From positions 46,281 to 85,346 of the forward strand of contig JAADHK010000027.1 in assembly GCA_013151835.1 (NCBI GenBank): a DNA stretch of 39,066 nucleotides, in the 5' to 3' direction. This stretch comes from Deltaproteobacteria bacterium. Lineage in GTDB: Bacteria; Desulfobacterota; Desulfobacteria; Desulfobacterales; Desulfosalsimonadaceae. Position 1 is the stretch's first letter. Every line of letters starts with the position of its first letter. The notes below the pieces were generated by a model. The model made no database searches, was not told the DNA's origin, and saw only the letters and a program-made list of their open reading frames with translations. Of the stretch, positions 8,043 to 15,667 are shown in pieces. A program made the position numbers and the translations under genes.

Positions 8043-8181
8043 GGTTTTTGCCGTAGCACATATTTGGCCATACGGGTGGACTGAAAATTCAACATGTTGG
8101 TCCTGGTTTGAAGGCAATTAAAGCCTTTAGACCGGTGCCGAACTCACAACTTAAATGGCGTTCTATAGAAGGGGGAGTTTT

Positions 8182-10299
8182 ATGAAACGGCAGCATCAGA
8201 AAGGAACACTACCGCTATACCTTCATGTCCGATTCATTGCAGCGGCATTCGCCATCCTGGTCATGGCGGCTTGCCCGTTTACCGCATTTGCCCAATCCGA
8301 TTTTCTCATCGGCACCGGCATTTATGATATCACCGGTCCTGCGGCGGAAGAAGGGATGATGGGCTATTCCATGCCCGACCAGAAGACAGAGGGGATAATG
8401 CTGCGACTCAGGTCCCGGGCGTTTGTGGTGGCTGATCCGGCGACCGGCAAAAGGGTAGCGTTTGTCTGCGCCGAAGCCGGCGTCCTGCCGCAGGGCGTCA
8501 AGCAGGCGGTGGTCAAAAAGCTGCTTGCGGCATACGGGGGGCTCTACACGGACGCGAACGTGGCCTTGAGCGCCACGCATACCCATTCCGGACCGGGAGC
8601 CATTTCCCATTACGCCATGTATAACCTCTCCATGCTCGGATATGATGAAAAACACTTTAATACCGTTGTCGATGGAATCTTCCGGTCGATCGTCCGTGCG
8701 CACAACAACCTGGCGCCGGGGAGCATATATATCAACACCGGCGAACTGGATAATTGCGGATGGAATCGCTCCCCGGGCGCCTACGCCAATGATCCCGCCC
8801 GGGAGAGGGCAGGATACGACGCGAATACGGACAGGCGGATGACCCTGCTGAAATTCGTGACGGACGCCGGCGAGCAGATCGGGACGATCAACTGGTTTGC
8901 CGTCCACCCCACGTCCCTGGGGAACACCAACAAGCTGATCAGCGGCGACAACAAGGGATACGCCTCCTATCTGTTTGAAAGGGCAAAGGGGACCAATTAT
9001 GCCGCCGGCCGCACGTTTGTCGCCGCCTTTGCCGAAAACAACGCGGGCGACGTGTCTCCCAACATCTACTGGGGTTATCCGAACGGGATTGATGATTTCA
9101 ATCACATGAAGATCATAGGGACGCGCCAGTATGATAAAGCCGCTGATTTATACAACAGCGCGACACGGCGCGTGACCGGCCATGTCGATTACCGGCATAT
9201 GTATGTTGATTTTTCCAATACCAGCATCGACGCCCGTTTTATTCAGGATCAGCCGGACGGCGCCGTGACGTGCAGCGCGGCCATAGGCGTTTCCATGCTG
9301 GCCGGGAGCACCGAGGACGGCAAAGGGATCGACATCCCGGAAGGGATTACCTATCCATATGATATCAGTATATTAGGGCAGGTATTTCCGTGGGGATTCA
9401 CCCTGCTGCCCGGAGACCAGGAATGCCAGGCCGAAAAGCCGATCATTCTTCCCATGGGCCGGATCAGGCCCCAGGGGATTCCGCTGACTCCGGAAGTCCT
9501 TCCGGTCCAGATCCTGAGAATCGGCGATTTTGCCATCATCGCCCAGCCCACCGAGATCACCACCATGGCCGGCCGGCGATTGCGGCAGACGGTAACAGAC
9601 GCCCTGGACGGCACGGTGGACAATGTGGTGATCGCCGCCCTGTCCAATGCCTATGCCGGATATGTCGCCACTCGGGAAGAATACGCCACCCAGAATTATG
9701 AAGGGGCCTCCACGCACTTCGGGCCCTATACCCTGAATGCATTTCAGCAGAGCTTTGACACCATTGCCACGGCCATGGCCGACGGGACGGCGGCCGATTC
9801 AGGCCCAACGCCCCGGGACATCGCCGACAATCAGCTGATTCCCGTCATAGGGGTCGTATTCGACGACAAGCCGCTGGATGTTAATTTCGGAAGCGTCTCG
9901 GCCGATGTCCGGACATTCTACAACCGTGGAGAAACCGCTGAAGCGGTCTTCTGGGGCGGGCATCCGAAAAACGATTACCGAATCCAGGGCACCTTTCTGG
10001 CCATTGAAAAGATGACGACCCATAAGGTATGCCACCAGGAGAAAGTAGGATGCGACACCATCACGGTCTGTGAAGATGTGCCGGTTGTGGAAAAGGTCGT
10101 TGCCAGGGACTGGGACCCCCAGACCCGCTATCACTGGGAACGCTACGGAGTTGCCTACTCGAAGATCCGGATTTCATGGGATACCGGCGGCGCTGAACCG
10201 GGACAATACCGCATCCATCATTACGGCAACTGGAAATCGGGCTGGACCGGCGAAATCAAACCCTATGAGGGTGTGTCAAGCGTGTTTACGCTGTATTGA
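8182..10299 (+). CDS. Neutral/alkaline (non-lysosomal-type) ceramidase, secreted
   Basis: 705 residues from the ATG at 8182, which has GGGGGAG five bases upstream; the ATG at 8155 has none. Signal peptide, cleavage probably after AFA (about residue 37). It hydrolyses the N-acyl bond of ceramide-like lipids. Family landmarks: GIYDITGPAAEEGMMGYSMP (47-64), zinc ligands in THTHSGPG (H133, H135), a further ligand candidate H242 in WFAVHPTSLGN, and the serine nucleophile motif GDVSPN (S292). An Ig-like C-terminal region follows, with CHQEKVGCDTITVC as a possible disulfide. First gene of a TetR-controlled operon with an Lgt-like and a CPBP protein. The natural substrate could be a bacterial sphingolipid, another N-acyl lipid, or exogenous ceramide. 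Confidence 0.93.
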   Translation: MKRQHQKGTLPLYLHVRFIAAAFAILVMAACPFTAFAQSDFLIGTGIYDITGPAAEEGMMGYSMPDQKTEGIMLRLRSRAFVVADPATGKRVAFVCAEAGVLPQGVKQAVVKKLLAAYGGLYTDANVALSATHTHSGPGAISHYAMYNLSMLGYDEKHFNTVVDGIFRSIVRAHNNLAPGSIYINTGELDNCGWNRSPGAYANDPARERAGYDANTDRRMTLLKFVTDAGEQIGTINWFAVHPTSLGNTNKLISGDNKGYASYLFERAKGTNYAAGRTFVAAFAENNAGDVSPNIYWGYPNGIDDFNHMKIIGTRQYDKAADLYNSATRRVTGHVDYRHMYVDFSNTSIDARFIQDQPDGAVTCSAAIGVSMLAGSTEDGKGIDIPEGITYPYDISILGQVFPWGFTLLPGDQECQAEKPIILPMGRIRPQGIPLTPEVLPVQILRIGDFAIIAQPTEITTMAGRRLRQTVTDALDGTVDNVVIAALSNAYAGYVATREEYATQNYEGASTHFGPYTLNAFQQSFDTIATAMADGTAADSGPTPRDIADNQLIPVIGVVFDDKPLDVNFGSVSADVRTFYNRGETAEAVFWGGHPKNDYRIQGTFLAIEKMTTHKVCHQEKVGCDTITVCEDVPVVEKVVARDWDPQTRYHWERYGVAYSKIRISWDTGGAEPGQYRIHHYGNWKSGWTGEIKPYEGVSSVFTLY

Positions 10300-10344
10300 T
10301 GCCGGAATACATGGTGCCAATCACATTTTCCGGTAATACATGCC

Positions 10345-11160
10345 ATGCTCTATTTCCTGCTTAAAAATTCGGTCCGGTTTCCGCTGCTCGGTGTTATTCT
10401 GAACACCGCTTATTACACCTGCATCGGCGCCGGTCTTGCGGTTGCGGCCACGCTGATCTGCCGCCGACTGCAGGCGCTCGGGTATCGGCGGCCAAAGGTC
10501 ATCATCTTCATGGCGCTTTGCGTCGCCCTTGCCATTCCCGCCGCTTTTATCAGTTCCCGTGCGGCCAATATGTTTTACTATCCGCCGGCGGACTGGACCA
10601 TCAGGCTGTTTGTCAGCGCCTTTGCCTCAGCCAGGAATGAAACCTTTCATGCAGCCCTCCTGCTGCCCGTGCTTGCCATCTCAATTCTCATCTTCGCCAT
10701 GGGGTTTTCCTTCGGCAGGGTATGGGATGTGATTTTTCTCTATGTGCCCCTTGGGCATGCATTCGGCCGGGTAGGCTGTTTCCTGGCCGGATGCTGCTGG
10801 GGAAATCCGGTATCGATCTGTATCGGCAATGTGTGTTACGCTTTTGCCAATCCGGTACCTCTATATGCCATCGCATGCAACCTCATGATATTTTTCTGGC
10901 TGCGCCGCAGGTATAACCGGATTCATGATCCGGCGCGGCCTGGTGGACCCGCCGGGACCATCGCGACCCATTATCTGGTGCTCTACGGGAGTGTCCGGTT
11001 TTTTATGGAATATATCCGCAAGGAACCGATTGTGGGACTCGGCCTGACCCAGGCCCAGTGGTTCATGACAGGCTATGTCCTTGCCGGTTCCTTGTTCTAT
11101 ATAGTAATACGGGTACGGTATCGCGCCCGTCTCCTTCATAACGCAACCTCAAACGCCTGA
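10345..11160 (+). CDS. Lgt-family (prolipoprotein diacylglyceryl transferase-like) membrane protein
   Basis: 271 residues with about seven hydrophobic segments. It has two Lgt landmarks: HAFGRVGCFLAGCCWG (138-153, with the family Gly-Arg) and YLVLYGSVRFFMEYIRKEP (210-228, with the R and E pair). Where E. coli Lgt has Asn146 and Glu151 this protein has Cys residues, a variant GRxGCFxxGCC seen in other family members, so the exact activity is uncertain. True Lgt moves diacylglycerol from phosphatidylglycerol to the lipobox Cys. Here the location in a ceramidase operon, rather than beside housekeeping genes, suggests a specialised paralogue. The start ATG has a weak ribosome binding site. The stop TGA overlaps the next start (TGATG). 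Confidence 0.82.
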   Translation: MLYFLLKNSVRFPLLGVILNTAYYTCIGAGLAVAATLICRRLQALGYRRPKVIIFMALCVALAIPAAFISSRAANMFYYPPADWTIRLFVSAFASARNETFHAALLLPVLAISILIFAMGFSFGRVWDVIFLYVPLGHAFGRVGCFLAGCCWGNPVSICIGNVCYAFANPVPLYAIACNLMIFFWLRRRYNRIHDPARPGGPAGTIATHYLVLYGSVRFFMEYIRKEPIVGLGLTQAQWFMTGYVLAGSLFYIVIRVRYRARLLHNATSNA

Positions 11161-11813
11161 TGGACCAGGCTGCCCGAAATATGCGAGCTGCGGCAGGATT
11201 TATCCTGTATTACCTGCTCTGTCTGGGGGCCATTGTTTTTGTCCTGCAAAACCGGATACTGCCGTGGCCGTTTCACGGGACCGGCACCTTGTCCCGTGTC
11301 TGGCTGAACGTTGGGGTTTATTTGCCGGTCCTCCTCATGGCGGCAATTTCCCTTGCATGGCTTGGATCTGAGGGCATGAGGGTCAGAGATGCTTTTGCGT
11401 GGCGCAAAATCCATTGGCTGTTTTATATCGGCCTTGTTGTCAGCGTGGCGGACAGCGTCTACCTGTTTACATTCAATCGATTTCCCCTGCATGCATATAC
11501 CTTCTGGCCGCCGGTGCTTCTCCTTTCCGCCATGAATGCGGCGGCGGAGGAAACGTTTTACCGGCTGGTGATATATCGCCTCACAAAAAGGTTGATTAAG
11601 CATTCATGGATGGCAAATCTGGTCCAGAGCGTGATATATGCAATTCCCCACTTATGGATAGGCGGGCCGCAGATGGTGGTTTTTGCTTTTATTTACGGGT
11701 TGATCCTGGGCATGATCGTTGAAAAAAACGACAGTGTGGTTCCGGCTATGATCTGTCATTTTTGTATTGATATCGGTAATATCGGCCTGCCCCTTCTGAT
11801 CATGCTGCCCTAA
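11160..11813 (+). CDS. CPBP-family intramembrane metalloprotease (CAAX/Abi type)
   Basis: 217 residues, mostly hydrophobic, with the catalytic pattern of family PF02517: EETFYR at 130-135 (EExxxR), H164 in AIPHLWIGG and H200 in MICHFCIDI as the metal-binding histidines. Such enzymes cleave membrane-proximal peptides (prenylated proteins, bacteriocin precursors, anti-sigma factors). Its start overlaps the upstream stop by one base, so synthesis is coupled to the Lgt-like protein. With the ceramidase it forms a three-gene lipid/lipoprotein-processing operon. The substrate is unknown. Confidence 0.85.
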   Translation: MDQAARNMRAAAGFILYYLLCLGAIVFVLQNRILPWPFHGTGTLSRVWLNVGVYLPVLLMAAISLAWLGSEGMRVRDAFAWRKIHWLFYIGLVVSVADSVYLFTFNRFPLHAYTFWPPVLLLSAMNAAAEETFYRLVIYRLTKRLIKHSWMANLVQSVIYAIPHLWIGGPQMVVFAFIYGLILGMIVEKNDSVVPAMICHFCIDIGNIGLPLLIMLP

Positions 11814-11858
11814 AAATAAAGAGATACACCTGCGTACGGACGGTTTTATGATTTTTCC
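11811..11858 (-). pseudogene. Stranded remnant of the outer-membrane gene 3' end
   Basis: Aligns with 15882-15926, the 3' end of the leftward outer-membrane-like gene, over about 45 bases with roughly six mismatches; the block GATACACCTGCGTACGG is identical. Read leftward it encodes NRPYAGVSLYF and a stop, against NGPYAGVSLYF in the intact gene; a Leu codon upstream has become TAA. The two copies bracket the DUF6502-DUF5666-cytochrome module as direct repeats. Confidence 0.8.
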
Positions 11859-11927
11859 GGATGCTGCAAATAACTCCAAAAACAGGAGTTCTCAGATCCT
11901 GTCTCATCTTTTTTTTGAAAATCTTTG

Positions 11928-11956
11928 TTGACAGTTTGTTTTTTTGGGAATATATT
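11928..11956 (+). promoter_or_regulatory. Near-consensus promoter of the DUF6502 module
   Basis: TTGACA at 11928-11933, a 17-bp spacer and TATATT at 11951-11956. The expected start point (about 11963) falls next to the ATG at 11964, so the mRNA would be leaderless. Confidence 0.7.
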
Positions 11957-11962
11957 CCCAAA
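11943..11962. promoter_or_regulatory. Perfect 20-bp palindrome covering the -10 box, probable operator
   Basis: TTTGGGAATATATTCCCAAA is fully self-complementary and contains the TATATT -10. It ends one base before the DUF6502 ATG. Binding here would block polymerase. The most economical ligand is the product of the gene itself or another regulator of this module. Confidence 0.7.
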
Positions 11963-11963
11963 T

Positions 11964-12802
11964 ATGAAAAACTCCATCACTACAAGTCTGAATCAGGCAG
12001 TCATCCGGTTGCTGCGGCCCCTGGTAAGGCCCTGGTAAGGATTCTACTGCGCAACGGTATATCCTTTCAGGTCTTTGCCGACCTGGCCCGCTGGGTCTAT
12101 ACCGATGTCGCCTTCAGGGAGTTTGCCATTGAAGGGAAAAAACAGACGCTTTCCAGGGTTTCGGTGTTAACCGGTCTTTCCAGAAAAGAAGTACAGCGGC
12201 AGCGAAGGATAGAGGCGCCCGTTGATGATGAAACTGCGCAGCGTTACAACCGGGCCACCCGGGTTGTCAGCGCCTGGGTACGAGATCATCGTTTTGTCGA
12301 CAGCCAGGGAAATCCGCTGCCTCTTTCCATGAGTGGGCCTGAACCATCTTTTGCCACCCTTGTCCATCTCTTCAGCGGCGATATGCCGGTCAGGGCTGTC
12401 TTGGACGAAATGCTGCGCGTCGGCGCGGTAGCTTTGAACGAAGACGAGACCCTCCGGCTTGCCACCAGGGCCTACCTTCCTGGAAGTGATAAAGAGGCCA
12501 AGATCAATATTCTCGGCGTCGATGTAGCCGATCTGGTTACGACCATTGATCATAATCTTGTCAAGAGCCATTCTCCGTTCTTCCAGCGCAAGGTTTCCTA
12601 CGATAATGTGCCGGCGGAGGTGCTCGAAAAGTTTAATGTTTTATGTACTGCTGAATCCCAGGCATTGCTGGAGAAGCTTGATGAATGGCTGGCAGCCCGG
12701 GACCGCGACACCAATCCGGAGATCCATGGGCTCGGCCGCAAACGGGTTGGACTCGGCATCTATTATTTTGAAGAAGACCTTGAAGGTTCTCTTCCATTAT
12801 GA
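11964..12802 (+). CDS. DUF6502-family protein, frame broken by an 11-bp tandem duplication
   Basis: The expected product starts at the ATG at 11964 (MKNSITTSLNQAVIRLLRPLVR), but CCCTGGTAAGG is duplicated in tandem at 12019-12040. That frame then meets TAA at 12036, while the rest (ILLRNGISFQVFADLARWVY...) continues in another frame to 12802. Removing one repeat unit restores about 275 residues. An uninterrupted frame from 11861 exists but starts upstream of the promoter. The segment QTLSRVSVLTGLSRKEVQRQ (about 70-90) looks like a helix-turn-helix, so a DNA-binding role is plausible; the family has no established function. Ten bases separate it from the DUF5666 gene, a recurrent partner of DUF6502 as I recall. 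Pseudogene, slippage variant or sequencing error are all possible. Confidence 0.75.
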
Positions 12803-12812
12803 GGTATTACTA

Positions 12813-13805
12813 ATGAACTATGCGCAACGCTCCCATAAAAGAATTGCAAAAATATCCTGGAAAAGATGGCTGAGAGCAGCCTCGCTTCTATTGCTTCTTC
12901 TGATAATATCTGCCTGCGGTGGTGGTGATGGGCTGCTGGCCGGCGGCGGCATCGGCGGTACCGGCATTACCAGCTCCGGCCCGATTACCGCCTTTGGAAG
13001 TATCTGGGTTAATGGCGTTGAGTACGATGTCGCCGGTGCGGATATTTCCGTGAACGGCATCCCCGCTACCGAGGTAGAACTGACCAGGGGAATGATAGTC
13101 CTGGTCAGGGGGAGCATCAATGATGATGGAATCAGTGGCAGCGCGTCATCCGTTACCTATAACAGTAATATTGCCGGCACAGTTACCGCCGTTGATATAG
13201 CCAATAACACCCTGACCGTCCTTGGCCAGACAGTCACCTGGGACAGCGAGACCTTTGGCGATGATAATGAACCCGGCGCTTGGGCTGTTCCCGCAGTTGG
13301 CGATTTCATCGAGATCAGCGCTCTGCCGTCGCTTAACGGCTGGCTGGCCAGAGCAATCAACCACCATGATCAGAGTGAGGGAAATGAGATTTCCGGAGAA
13401 GTCGAAAGCCTGAACATCCAGAATCACACCTTCATGGTCGGTGGCCTTGAAATTCGTTACCAGGGGCAGGTTGATCTCCAGGAGGGTGATTTTGTTGAAA
13501 TAAAGGGTACGGTAAACGGTAACGTTATGATGGCGTCGAAAATCGAGATACATACCCCGGAGCTGGCCGGCGACAATGAAGATATGGAGGTTGAGGGCAT
13601 TGTCAGTGAGTATGATGGCAGCAGCAAGGCGCTTGTCCTGATGGCTTCCGGCGGTCATTACCAGATAGAGGCCAACGGCGCCGTTTTCGAGCACGGAAAT
13701 GAAAGCGATCTGCTACCCGGCGCCCGGGTCGAAGTGAGCGGCTATGTGCAGGATGGCCTCTTCTTTGCGGAGAAGATTGAGATCAAAGGACAGGGACAGG
13801 ATTGA
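12813..13805 (+). CDS. DUF5666 repeat lipoprotein
   Basis: 330 residues from the ATG at 12813, with GAGGT seven bases upstream. A lipoprotein signal ends in ISAC (Cys35), followed by a Gly-rich linker GGGDGLLAGGGIGGTG. The body is a series of short beta-rich units of the DUF5666 type (GPITAFGSIWVNGVEYDV, then repeated blocks of the form VEGxVxxxDxxxxxxxVxG), about four to five in all, probably OB-like barrels. It should sit at the outer membrane or surface. The function is unknown. It lies between the DUF6502 gene and the tetraheme lipoprotein, so it may be an accessory or binding protein of that system. Confidence 0.85.
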   Translation: MNYAQRSHKRIAKISWKRWLRAASLLLLLLIISACGGGDGLLAGGGIGGTGITSSGPITAFGSIWVNGVEYDVAGADISVNGIPATEVELTRGMIVLVRGSINDDGISGSASSVTYNSNIAGTVTAVDIANNTLTVLGQTVTWDSETFGDDNEPGAWAVPAVGDFIEISALPSLNGWLARAINHHDQSEGNEISGEVESLNIQNHTFMVGGLEIRYQGQVDLQEGDFVEIKGTVNGNVMMASKIEIHTPELAGDNEDMEVEGIVSEYDGSSKALVLMASGGHYQIEANGAVFEHGNESDLLPGARVEVSGYVQDGLFFAEKIEIKGQGQD

Positions 13806-13822
13806 TCCCTTTTATATAGTGG

Positions 13823-13865
13823 GTGGGCGGCCCGGTCTCGGCCAAAAGAATCCGGGCCACCCTGA
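13823..13865. promoter_or_regulatory. GC-rich stem-loop between the DUF5666 and cytochrome genes
   Basis: GGCCCGG and CCGGGCC can pair, extended by GGGT/ACCC with a small bulge. No T-run follows, so it is not a classic terminator. It could protect mRNA or set the expression ratio within the operon. Confidence 0.35.
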
Positions 13866-13921
13866 ATCGGACAAAACGCAAATTTTCCGACTACTTTGTA
13901 ACATACCAGAAGGAGCGCACA

Positions 13922-15667
13922 ATGAGCAACAACAAAAGAACACAAAAACGATTGCCGGCATTACTGGCCCTTTTTACCATCCTGGCATTTAGCATGTCTG
14001 GATGCAGCGGCGGTGAAGGAACCGCAACTGTTGCATCTCCATCAGGAGTAACACCGACGACCTCGTTATCAACAGGCGCTGCGGTCATCGGCACTGTGCC
14101 CGGGACCCTGATTGAGGCATTTTGTGACAATGGTTCCTACTACAGCACCACATCCACCCAAAACGGCACCAGTGAACACCCTTTCAATCTGCAACTTCCA
14201 GCTGACATAGGTTGCCGCCTGGTCATGACCACCAACGAGGGGACCGCCGATGAAGTGGTTTCCCCCATAGGTTTCCTGGATATCAATAATGAAGTCAACA
14301 CCAGGCTGACCCTTGCTGATAACAGCACGGTTGACCTCGGATTTGTCCCGCTTCCCATGAGCCGTGCGGAAGCTTCCAACAATGACATTAATGGCGACGG
14401 CATCCTCGATGCACCCTTTATCCTCGACAATTATCAGGACCAGGGAGCCATAAACCCGCTCAAACATATGGACTCGGACCATGACGGCATCAAGGACTGG
14501 CAGGACGAGGACCACGGAGATCCGCTACATGCCGGCACCGCTAATGATATTCTGGACAAGGATATGGACGGCATCCCCAACAACTATGACCACGATTTTA
14601 TTCCAGAGGCAAATGATACGGACGGCGACGGCATCCCGGACCGGATGGACGTAAATCCGGAGAATCATAAGGACCAAAACAGTCGCCTGGCCGGAGACCA
14701 TGATGGTGACGGCTATCACGACAGCGACCGTGACCATGACGGTTTCCTTGATGAAGATCATGACCGGGACGGCGAACCGGACAACAACCAGACAATCGGC
14801 CTTACCGGCGCCAATGCGGGGGCGATACTGTTTGGCAGCTACTGCTCATCCTGCCACCTGCCTGACGGTTACGATCTTGGGACAGTATCTGCCGAAGCCA
14901 TTGGCGCCGCCCTGAACGGCGTGCCTGACATGGTCGGAGTCGCCGCCCTGGTAACCGGACAGGACTATCAAGCGCTGGCGGACTTCATCAATATGAATGG
15001 CCATGATTCGGGTTGGGCAATTGAGGAAAATCACGGCGGTTACGTTAAGATCAATGGCGTTGATGTTTGCGCGGCCTGTCACGGAGCCGACCTGAACGGA
15101 AATGTTTCAATCCCTTCCTGCTACTCCTGCCATGACAATAAATGGGGCGCCGGTCCGGGGCCTTTGCCGACACCTCCGTCTGGTCCGGGCGCCAACAGGG
15201 CGCCGGTCGCCGATGCCGGGCCCAACCAGAATGTGATTATCGGGGACACCGTTAATCTTGACGGTTCCGGAAGCCATGATGCCGACAACGATATCCTGAG
15301 TTATAACTGGAGTATGCCAGGCAGCCCGCCGGGTTCTGCCGCCGCCCTTCCCAATCCATATATTATCAATCCCGCCTTTATTGCGGATGTTGCCGGGACC
15401 TATACCATCCAACTGGTGGTCAACGACGGCACCGCCAACAGCAACACGGCCACAATGAACGTTACCGCCACCCCGGTTATTGACGGCGCCTCCCTTTACG
15501 GAACAAACTGCGCCATGTGCCACGGTCCCCTGGCCACCAGTTCCAAGCGGGGCGCAAGCGCGGCCAAGATCCAGTCCGCCATCAATAACAACAGGGGGGG
15601 GATGGGTCGTCTGAATACGTTTGCCAGTGCCGAAATCAGCGCTATTGCCGCAGTATTGACGCCATAG
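13922..15667 (+). CDS. Tetraheme c-type lipoprotein with calcium-binding TSP3-like repeats and a PKD-like domain
   Basis: 581 residues; ATG at 13922 with AGGAG six bases upstream. Lipobox MSGC (Cys28). Residues about 153-290 are Asp-rich DxDxDG repeats (thrombospondin type-3/EF-hand-like) that should bind many Ca2+ ions. Four haem motifs follow: CSSCH (308-312), CAACH (383-387), CYSCH (400-404) and CAMCH (530-534). A PKD/Ig-like domain (about 426-518) separates the third and fourth. The last part (520-581) is a class I cytochrome c-like domain, but its distal Met is not obvious. This suits an outer-surface electron carrier or a haem enzyme that needs calcium; direct function is unknown. An eight-G run at 15594-15601 lies in the last domain. 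Confidence 0.85.
   Translation: MSNNKRTQKRLPALLALFTILAFSMSGCSGGEGTATVASPSGVTPTTSLSTGAAVIGTVPGTLIEAFCDNGSYYSTTSTQNGTSEHPFNLQLPADIGCRLVMTTNEGTADEVVSPIGFLDINNEVNTRLTLADNSTVDLGFVPLPMSRAEASNNDINGDGILDAPFILDNYQDQGAINPLKHMDSDHDGIKDWQDEDHGDPLHAGTANDILDKDMDGIPNNYDHDFIPEANDTDGDGIPDRMDVNPENHKDQNSRLAGDHDGDGYHDSDRDHDGFLDEDHDRDGEPDNNQTIGLTGANAGAILFGSYCSSCHLPDGYDLGTVSAEAIGAALNGVPDMVGVAALVTGQDYQALADFINMNGHDSGWAIEENHGGYVKINGVDVCAACHGADLNGNVSIPSCYSCHDNKWGAGPGPLPTPPSGPGANRAPVADAGPNQNVIIGDTVNLDGSGSHDADNDILSYNWSMPGSPPGSAAALPNPYIINPAFIADVAGTYTIQLVVNDGTANSNTATMNVTATPVIDGASLYGTNCAMCHGPLATSSKRGASAAKIQSAINNNRGGMGRLNTFASAEISAIAAVLTP

Follow-up and report, generated by a model that had tools for sequence, protein, structure and literature searches.

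In the window, the 39 066-nt stretch of a genome from the family Desulfosalsimonadaceae analysed here, we found a promoter, a palindrome and the start codon of a DUF6502 gene fused into one element. Since this fusion recurs across phyla, we take DUF6502 to represent a new family of regulators that control themselves, possibly with a fold shared with HetR, the regulator of cell differentiation in cyanobacteria. DUF6502 is probably a dimeric helix-turn-helix (HTH) protein that recognizes the operator TTTGGGA-N6-TCCCAAA and represses its own leaderless operon. We found no mention of DUF6502 in the literature searched, and Pfam annotates the family (PF20112) as being of unknown function.

Promoter region of the DUF6502 gene

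The elements upstream of the gene are as follows.

11928..11933, plus strand: -35 element TTGACA, read from the sequence; TTGAC(A) has the same spacing in most homologous loci
11943..11962, no strand: palindrome TTTGGGAATATATTCCCAAA, 20 bp, perfect; putative DUF6502 operator
11951..11956, plus strand: -10 element TATATT, within the palindrome and 7 nt 5′ of the ATG at 11964

The two promoter elements, with a spacer of 17 nt, carry 11 of the 12 consensus bases, and TTGACA-N17-TATATT was the top promoter-like site within positions 11000–14000. The sequence TTTGGGAATATATTCCCAAA was the sole match in the window with up to three mismatches allowed (0.01 expected), and its 14-bp core GGGAATATATTCCC is present in a single copy in the 3.3-Mb genome. 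With a gap of 7 nt between TATATT and the ATG, the expected transcription start is position 11964 or a site a few nucleotides from it; such a message would have no room for a ribosome-binding site. No Shine-Dalgarno site was seen ahead of this ATG in the window sequence. The first-pass annotation had described this promoter and its spacer, the location of the -10 element inside a perfect palindrome and the absence of a ribosome-binding site, and the window sequence bears out each of these observations. A genome-wide search for TTGAC...TANNNT-N5-8-ATG was uninformative (in 3.3 Mb, 21 matches as against 6 with the pattern reversed).

One could suppose that the palindrome works at the RNA level, as a hairpin or terminator, instead of serving as an operator in the DNA, since the transcribed sequence could give an 8-bp stem (MFE -11.8 kcal/mol, z -1.9). 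The predicted transcript, however, begins where the palindrome ends, and this promoter would therefore not make the hairpin RNA; moreover, the -10 element lies within the palindrome, no U tract follows it, and its distances to the -35 element and to the ATG are fixed across phyla. We rejected the hairpin on this geometry and assign it a negligible probability.

The frameshifted DUF6502 copy and its neighbours

As assembled, the gene following the promoter is interrupted near its 5′-end.

11964..12038, plus strand: ancestral leaderless DUF6502 start, conserved as a start in homologues; assembled as a 24-codon ORF with TAA at 12036–12038
12019..12040, plus strand: frame-shifting tandem duplication of 11 bp, CCCTGGTAAGG twice, absent from homologues; mutation or assembly error
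12026..12802, plus strand: coding body of DUF6502 (PF20112), open, in the frame of 11861; putative HTH regulator
12801..12805, plus strand: Shine-Dalgarno-like GAGGT ahead of the DUF5666 gene; it overlaps with the stop codon of DUF6502
12813..13805, plus strand: DUF5666 lipoprotein gene (PF18914), putative second gene of the operon
13922..15667, plus strand: gene of a secreted protein with PKD and cytochrome c motifs, preceded by a Shine-Dalgarno-like site; possible further operon member

The ORF starting at ATG 11964 translates to MKNSITTSLNQAVIRLLRPLVRPW* and is broken by the duplication, whose units of CCCTGGTAAGG occupy positions 12019–12029 and 12030–12040. The window protein is a member of DUF6502, with 292.8 bits against PF20112 (cut-off 27). 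This match is in the frame of 11861–12802 and begins at profile position 13, positions 1–12 being absent because of the frameshift. Intact homologues read without interruption across the duplication point (M...LLRPLVRILLRNG), as does the 68% identical homologue L023 (MDSSINKTLNIAILKLLRPLVRILLRNG), and therefore we characterized ATG 11964 as the ancestral start of DUF6502. The earlier proposal that DUF6502 starts at this codon is thus right for the ancestral gene, while in the assembled sequence the codon opens an ORF of just 24 codons. As an alternative start we considered ATG 11861 and rejected it: it sits 5′ of the -35 element and is unusable from the TTGACA-N17-TATATT promoter.

Judging from the sequence, the window copy is recently frameshifted or misassembled, with the remainder of the gene open; if the duplication did not arise in assembly, the gene may be a pseudogene, possibly inactive. 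The 11-bp tandem repeat could also slip back, and we saw no sign of phase variation here.

The broken ORF would fit a chance arrangement at the window locus, or the remains of a gene that is no longer functional. Yet the arrangement is repeated in ∼40 other loci from several phyla, and the otherwise open body with its high profile score indicates that any damage occurred recently or was introduced by the assembly; we consider chance or a relic to be very improbable.

Among the homologous loci described below, 59 of 63 DUF5666 genes were preceded by a Shine-Dalgarno match; the rule was permissive (80% in shuffled sequences), and we did not count this figure as evidence. On the 5′ side, immediately before the lipoprotein operon, positions 8155–11813 of the window hold in a row genes for a neutral ceramidase, a homologue of Lgt (prolipoprotein diacylglyceryl transferase) and an Rce1-like CAAX protease.

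Conservation of the palindrome and of the leaderless arrangement

DUF6502 has a patchy distribution. From the family and order, 60 genomes were sampled and only one, the window genome, had a DUF6502 match, with none in the other 59; in the phylum sample a match was present in 17 of 395 genomes. For comparison we used the 80 best loci from a scan of species genomes, all members of PF20112 (81 loci with the window). As these were picked by similarity to the window group, the frequencies given below refer to that part of PF20112. One locus (L054) comes from a metagenome-assembled genome titled Bordetella parapertussis; its DUF6502 branches with those of Nitrospirota and other Pseudomonadota, and the record is probably misnamed or mis-binned.

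The first-pass annotation had proposed to look for the palindrome upstream of other DUF6502 genes and had made its case dependent on the outcome. We observed exact TGGGA-N6-TCCCA within 260 bp upstream of DUF6502 in 53 of the 80 loci, across phyla, an outcome strongly in favour of the first-pass annotation. A palindromic position weight matrix derived from these 53 sites identified 105 sites of at least 10 bits across the loci, versus 1.4 in shuffled loci. Sites of at least 20 bits were present within 400 bp 5′ of DUF6502 in 62 of 81 loci. Among the 19 loci below 20 bits, three have a near-threshold site and retain the leaderless layout; in others the site stands before a neighbouring gene or the upstream DNA is truncated. 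The motif was absent upstream of the divergent members L013, L017, L019 and L020. Upstream of L017 (58 bits) there is a different palindrome, ATATATGTGC-AAAAA-GCACATATAT, possibly reflecting a changed operator specificity.

The palindrome core and the start codon are most often 3 nt apart (29 loci, a sharp peak), and 2–5 nt apart in 39 loci. We characterized these 39 loci as leaderless-type: the start codon is ATG in all of them, and a Shine-Dalgarno match of four or more bases is present in one. Addition of the three near-threshold loci makes a set of 42, with a Shine-Dalgarno match in one locus as compared with 31% in shuffled upstream sequence; the -10 element is exactly 7 nt from the ATG in 26 of the 42, and the -35 element is mostly TTGACA with a 17-nt spacer. 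Altogether, in ∼40 of the 80 loci, from at least five phyla, the -35 element, the -10 element inside the palindrome and the ATG are fused with no Shine-Dalgarno site, so the fusion first described for the window is a layout recurring across phyla.

On the protein tree the leaderless form appears in Nitrospirota, Pseudomonadota, Thermodesulfobacteriota, Myxococcota, Tectomicrobia and SAR324, and it is the form of the window's three nearest relatives. The minimum number of changes between leadered and leaderless states is 17, indicating that the leader was gained and lost repeatedly. Leadered members include L026, L064, L071 and L072, as well as Desulfobacterales such as L038, L062 and L077, the last from the cultured Desulfosarcina alkanivorans; several have a Shine-Dalgarno site (e.g. 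AGGAGGTGAT in L026 and AAGGAG in L064). Leaderlessness at DUF6502 loci is, therefore, common and not universal.

Association of the site with DUF6502 and with neighbouring genes

The 18-base form of the site, TTGGGA-N6-TCCCAA, occurred in 16 of 20 genomes with DUF6502, always with a copy at the DUF6502 locus; away from this locus we found three copies among the 20 genomes (in G297, G377 and G451). In 20 control genomes of the same family or order with no DUF6502 match the site was found in three, all with G/C-containing centres. This nearly one-to-one association of the site with DUF6502 makes DUF6502 the likely binding protein.

Second genomic copies of the palindrome are located at G297:C20:11321 (L105) and G377:C122:19834. 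The L105 copy is in a promoter ahead of a gene for a secreted protein with the cytochrome c motif CxxCH. Judging from the L105 copy, the G297 and G377 genomes seem to contain a distant target.

Genes of DUF5666-type lipoproteins were present at 66 of 81 DUF6502 loci, mostly directly downstream. In all seven loci with DUF5666 directly upstream of DUF6502 (L031, L055, L057, L067, L080, L082 and L101) the palindrome is located before DUF5666. In L100 it precedes a DUF5666 gene farther downstream, and in L061 the site is ahead of a gene for a DUF5666-multihaem cytochrome protein. The first-pass annotation had suggested that DUF6502 regulates its own gene and the lipoprotein genes; the sites before DUF5666 support this, with the difference that the target would be promoter DNA and not the message.

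Genes of DUF1611-like P-loop proteins near DUF6502 were preceded by the site in five of five loci from two phyla.

L027:1155-2198: DUF1611-like P-loop gene, Nitrospirota
L032:5497-6552: DUF1611-like P-loop gene, gammaproteobacteria
L033:2625-3680: DUF1611-like P-loop gene, gammaproteobacteria
L036:5316-6371: DUF1611-like P-loop gene, gammaproteobacteria
L096:5428-5967: DUF1611-like P-loop gene, gammaproteobacteria

The DUF1611-like gene is, on this positional ground, likely to be a second DUF6502 target.

The presence of sites before DUF5666, DUF1611-like and cytochrome-like genes could also mean that the palindrome belongs to another regulator with DUF6502 as just one of its targets. We consider this improbable, as most genomes have close to one copy of the site, located at DUF6502, it is rare and differently centred in the control genomes, and it tracks DUF6502 across phyla while the other neighbours vary.

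Predicted structure and comparison with HetR

In the AlphaFold model of the L023 protein (pLDDT 88.8, pTM 0.75), the N-terminal domain is helical and includes an HTH (helices 59–66 and 70–78); the middle part resembles a winged helix, and a pair of long helices lies at the C-terminus. The HTH residues S60, R61, G67, R70, K71 and E72 are invariant or nearly so. An N-terminal HTH was also seen in the model of a divergent protein, L019 (35% identical to the window protein); the helix-turn-helix-like segment noted in the first-pass annotation thus has a counterpart in the predicted structures.

Among solved structures the top match of the L023 model was HetR (4j00), with a Foldseek E-value of 3.8e-4 and, in VIA, Z of 8.3 over 217 aligned residues at an rmsd of 10.7 Å. 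For the L019 model HetR was again first (Foldseek E-value 1.7e-2; VIA Z 7.7, 214 residues, rmsd 10.9 Å), and the first five VIA rows were all HetR. The HetR structures (PDB 4j00, 4izz, 4hri, 4yrv and 3qod) are thus the best match of both DUF6502 models along their whole length and, like them, have an N-terminal HTH; on these rankings DUF6502 may have the three-domain fold of HetR (HTH domain, flap and hood). HetR is also autoregulated and needs a GGG-N5-CCC palindrome in which both half-sites are essential (PMC4649674), similar to the GGG and CCC half-sites of the putative DUF6502 operator; the spacing differs, being GGG-N8-CCC at DUF6502 loci. The rmsd of ∼10–11 Å over the whole chain may stem from domains moving relative to each other; when HetR binds DNA, its flap turns by 18–63 degrees (PMC4649674).

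Sequence comparisons gave no significant support for homology to HetR by hhalign, hmmsearch, Pfam scan or PSSM (167 decoys, 150 shuffles). The hhalign probability for DUF6502 versus HetR was 0.1%, the score against the HetR profile (PF03574) was no better than those of decoys, and HetR was absent from the 25 families most matched by 69 DUF6502 proteins at E-value ≤10. A search of the window genome with PF03574 gave no match; no positive control gave one either. The DUF6502 profile produced nothing significant against solved structures. Since there is no detectable sequence similarity, and VIA Z values near 8 can be due to a common arrangement, kinship with HetR is a lead and not a result. Tentatively, DUF6502 could be a sister family of HetR outside the cyanobacteria that has the intertwined-dimer fold of HetR and reads GGG/CCC half-sites as HetR does; we regard this idea as somewhat less probable than its opposite. 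HetR also differs in being cyanobacterial and chiefly an activator.

Proposed mode of regulation

With a dimer centred on its -10 element, a near-consensus promoter would be closed to RNA polymerase, which makes autorepression the most likely mode of action. The same operator and regulator could instead serve activation of the operon, as with HetR at some promoters; the best structural matches are indeed to an autoregulated activator (PMC4649674). A near-consensus promoter with a 17-bp spacer needs no activator, however, and a dimer bound at the -10 element would clash with RNA polymerase. We therefore see activation as unlikely.

In the autorepression model, the operator overlies the -10 element of a near-consensus sigma-70-type promoter that would drive DUF6502 and then the DUF5666 lipoprotein gene. 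A bound DUF6502 dimer would block RNA polymerase, and the operon would stay repressed until some signal releases the operator. Transcription would then begin at the ATG or a few nucleotides away from it and yield a leaderless mRNA; its weak translation would keep the regulator scarce, and the lipoprotein gene would be translated from its own ribosome-binding site.

The closest documented case is the leaderless acuR-acuI-dddL operon of Rhodobacter sphaeroides, headed by the gene of the TetR-family autorepressor AcuR (PMC3017554). Mapping placed the 5′ end of the acuR transcript at the AUG itself, with no Shine-Dalgarno site; the promoter contains an inverted-repeat operator adjoining the ATG; AcuR is translated less than the downstream genes; and the layout recurs in diverse bacteria (PMC3017554). 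The window locus has the corresponding features: a -10 element ∼7 nt from the ATG, no Shine-Dalgarno site, and an inverted repeat that overlaps the promoter and is conserved in homologues. The two systems differ in that AcuR belongs to the TetR family, responds to the ligand acrylate and has catabolic genes downstream, whereas DUF6502 is of another family and has lipoprotein targets. Lambda cI and tetR of Tn1721 are regulator genes with leaderless messages (cited via PMC3017554), as DUF6502 would be in this model; their proteins, operators and contexts are unrelated to DUF6502.

Implications

If DUF6502 were a true sister family, a widespread autoregulator of lipoprotein operons would be either the forerunner of the heterocyst master regulator or its relative by common ancestry. 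Homology would also provide non-cyanobacterial relatives for a factor whose flap and hood were called novel folds.

For DUF6502 itself, a family with members in Nitrospirota, Desulfobacterota, Myxococcota, Gammaproteobacteria, SAR324 and other groups gains a predicted function and a predicted operator, and becomes tied to the DUF5666 lipoproteins, likewise of unknown function. The occurrence of leaderless and leadered members within one family allows their comparison, and the leaderless loci are a clear-cut example of how a promoter, an operator and a start codon can form one element that is kept across phyla.
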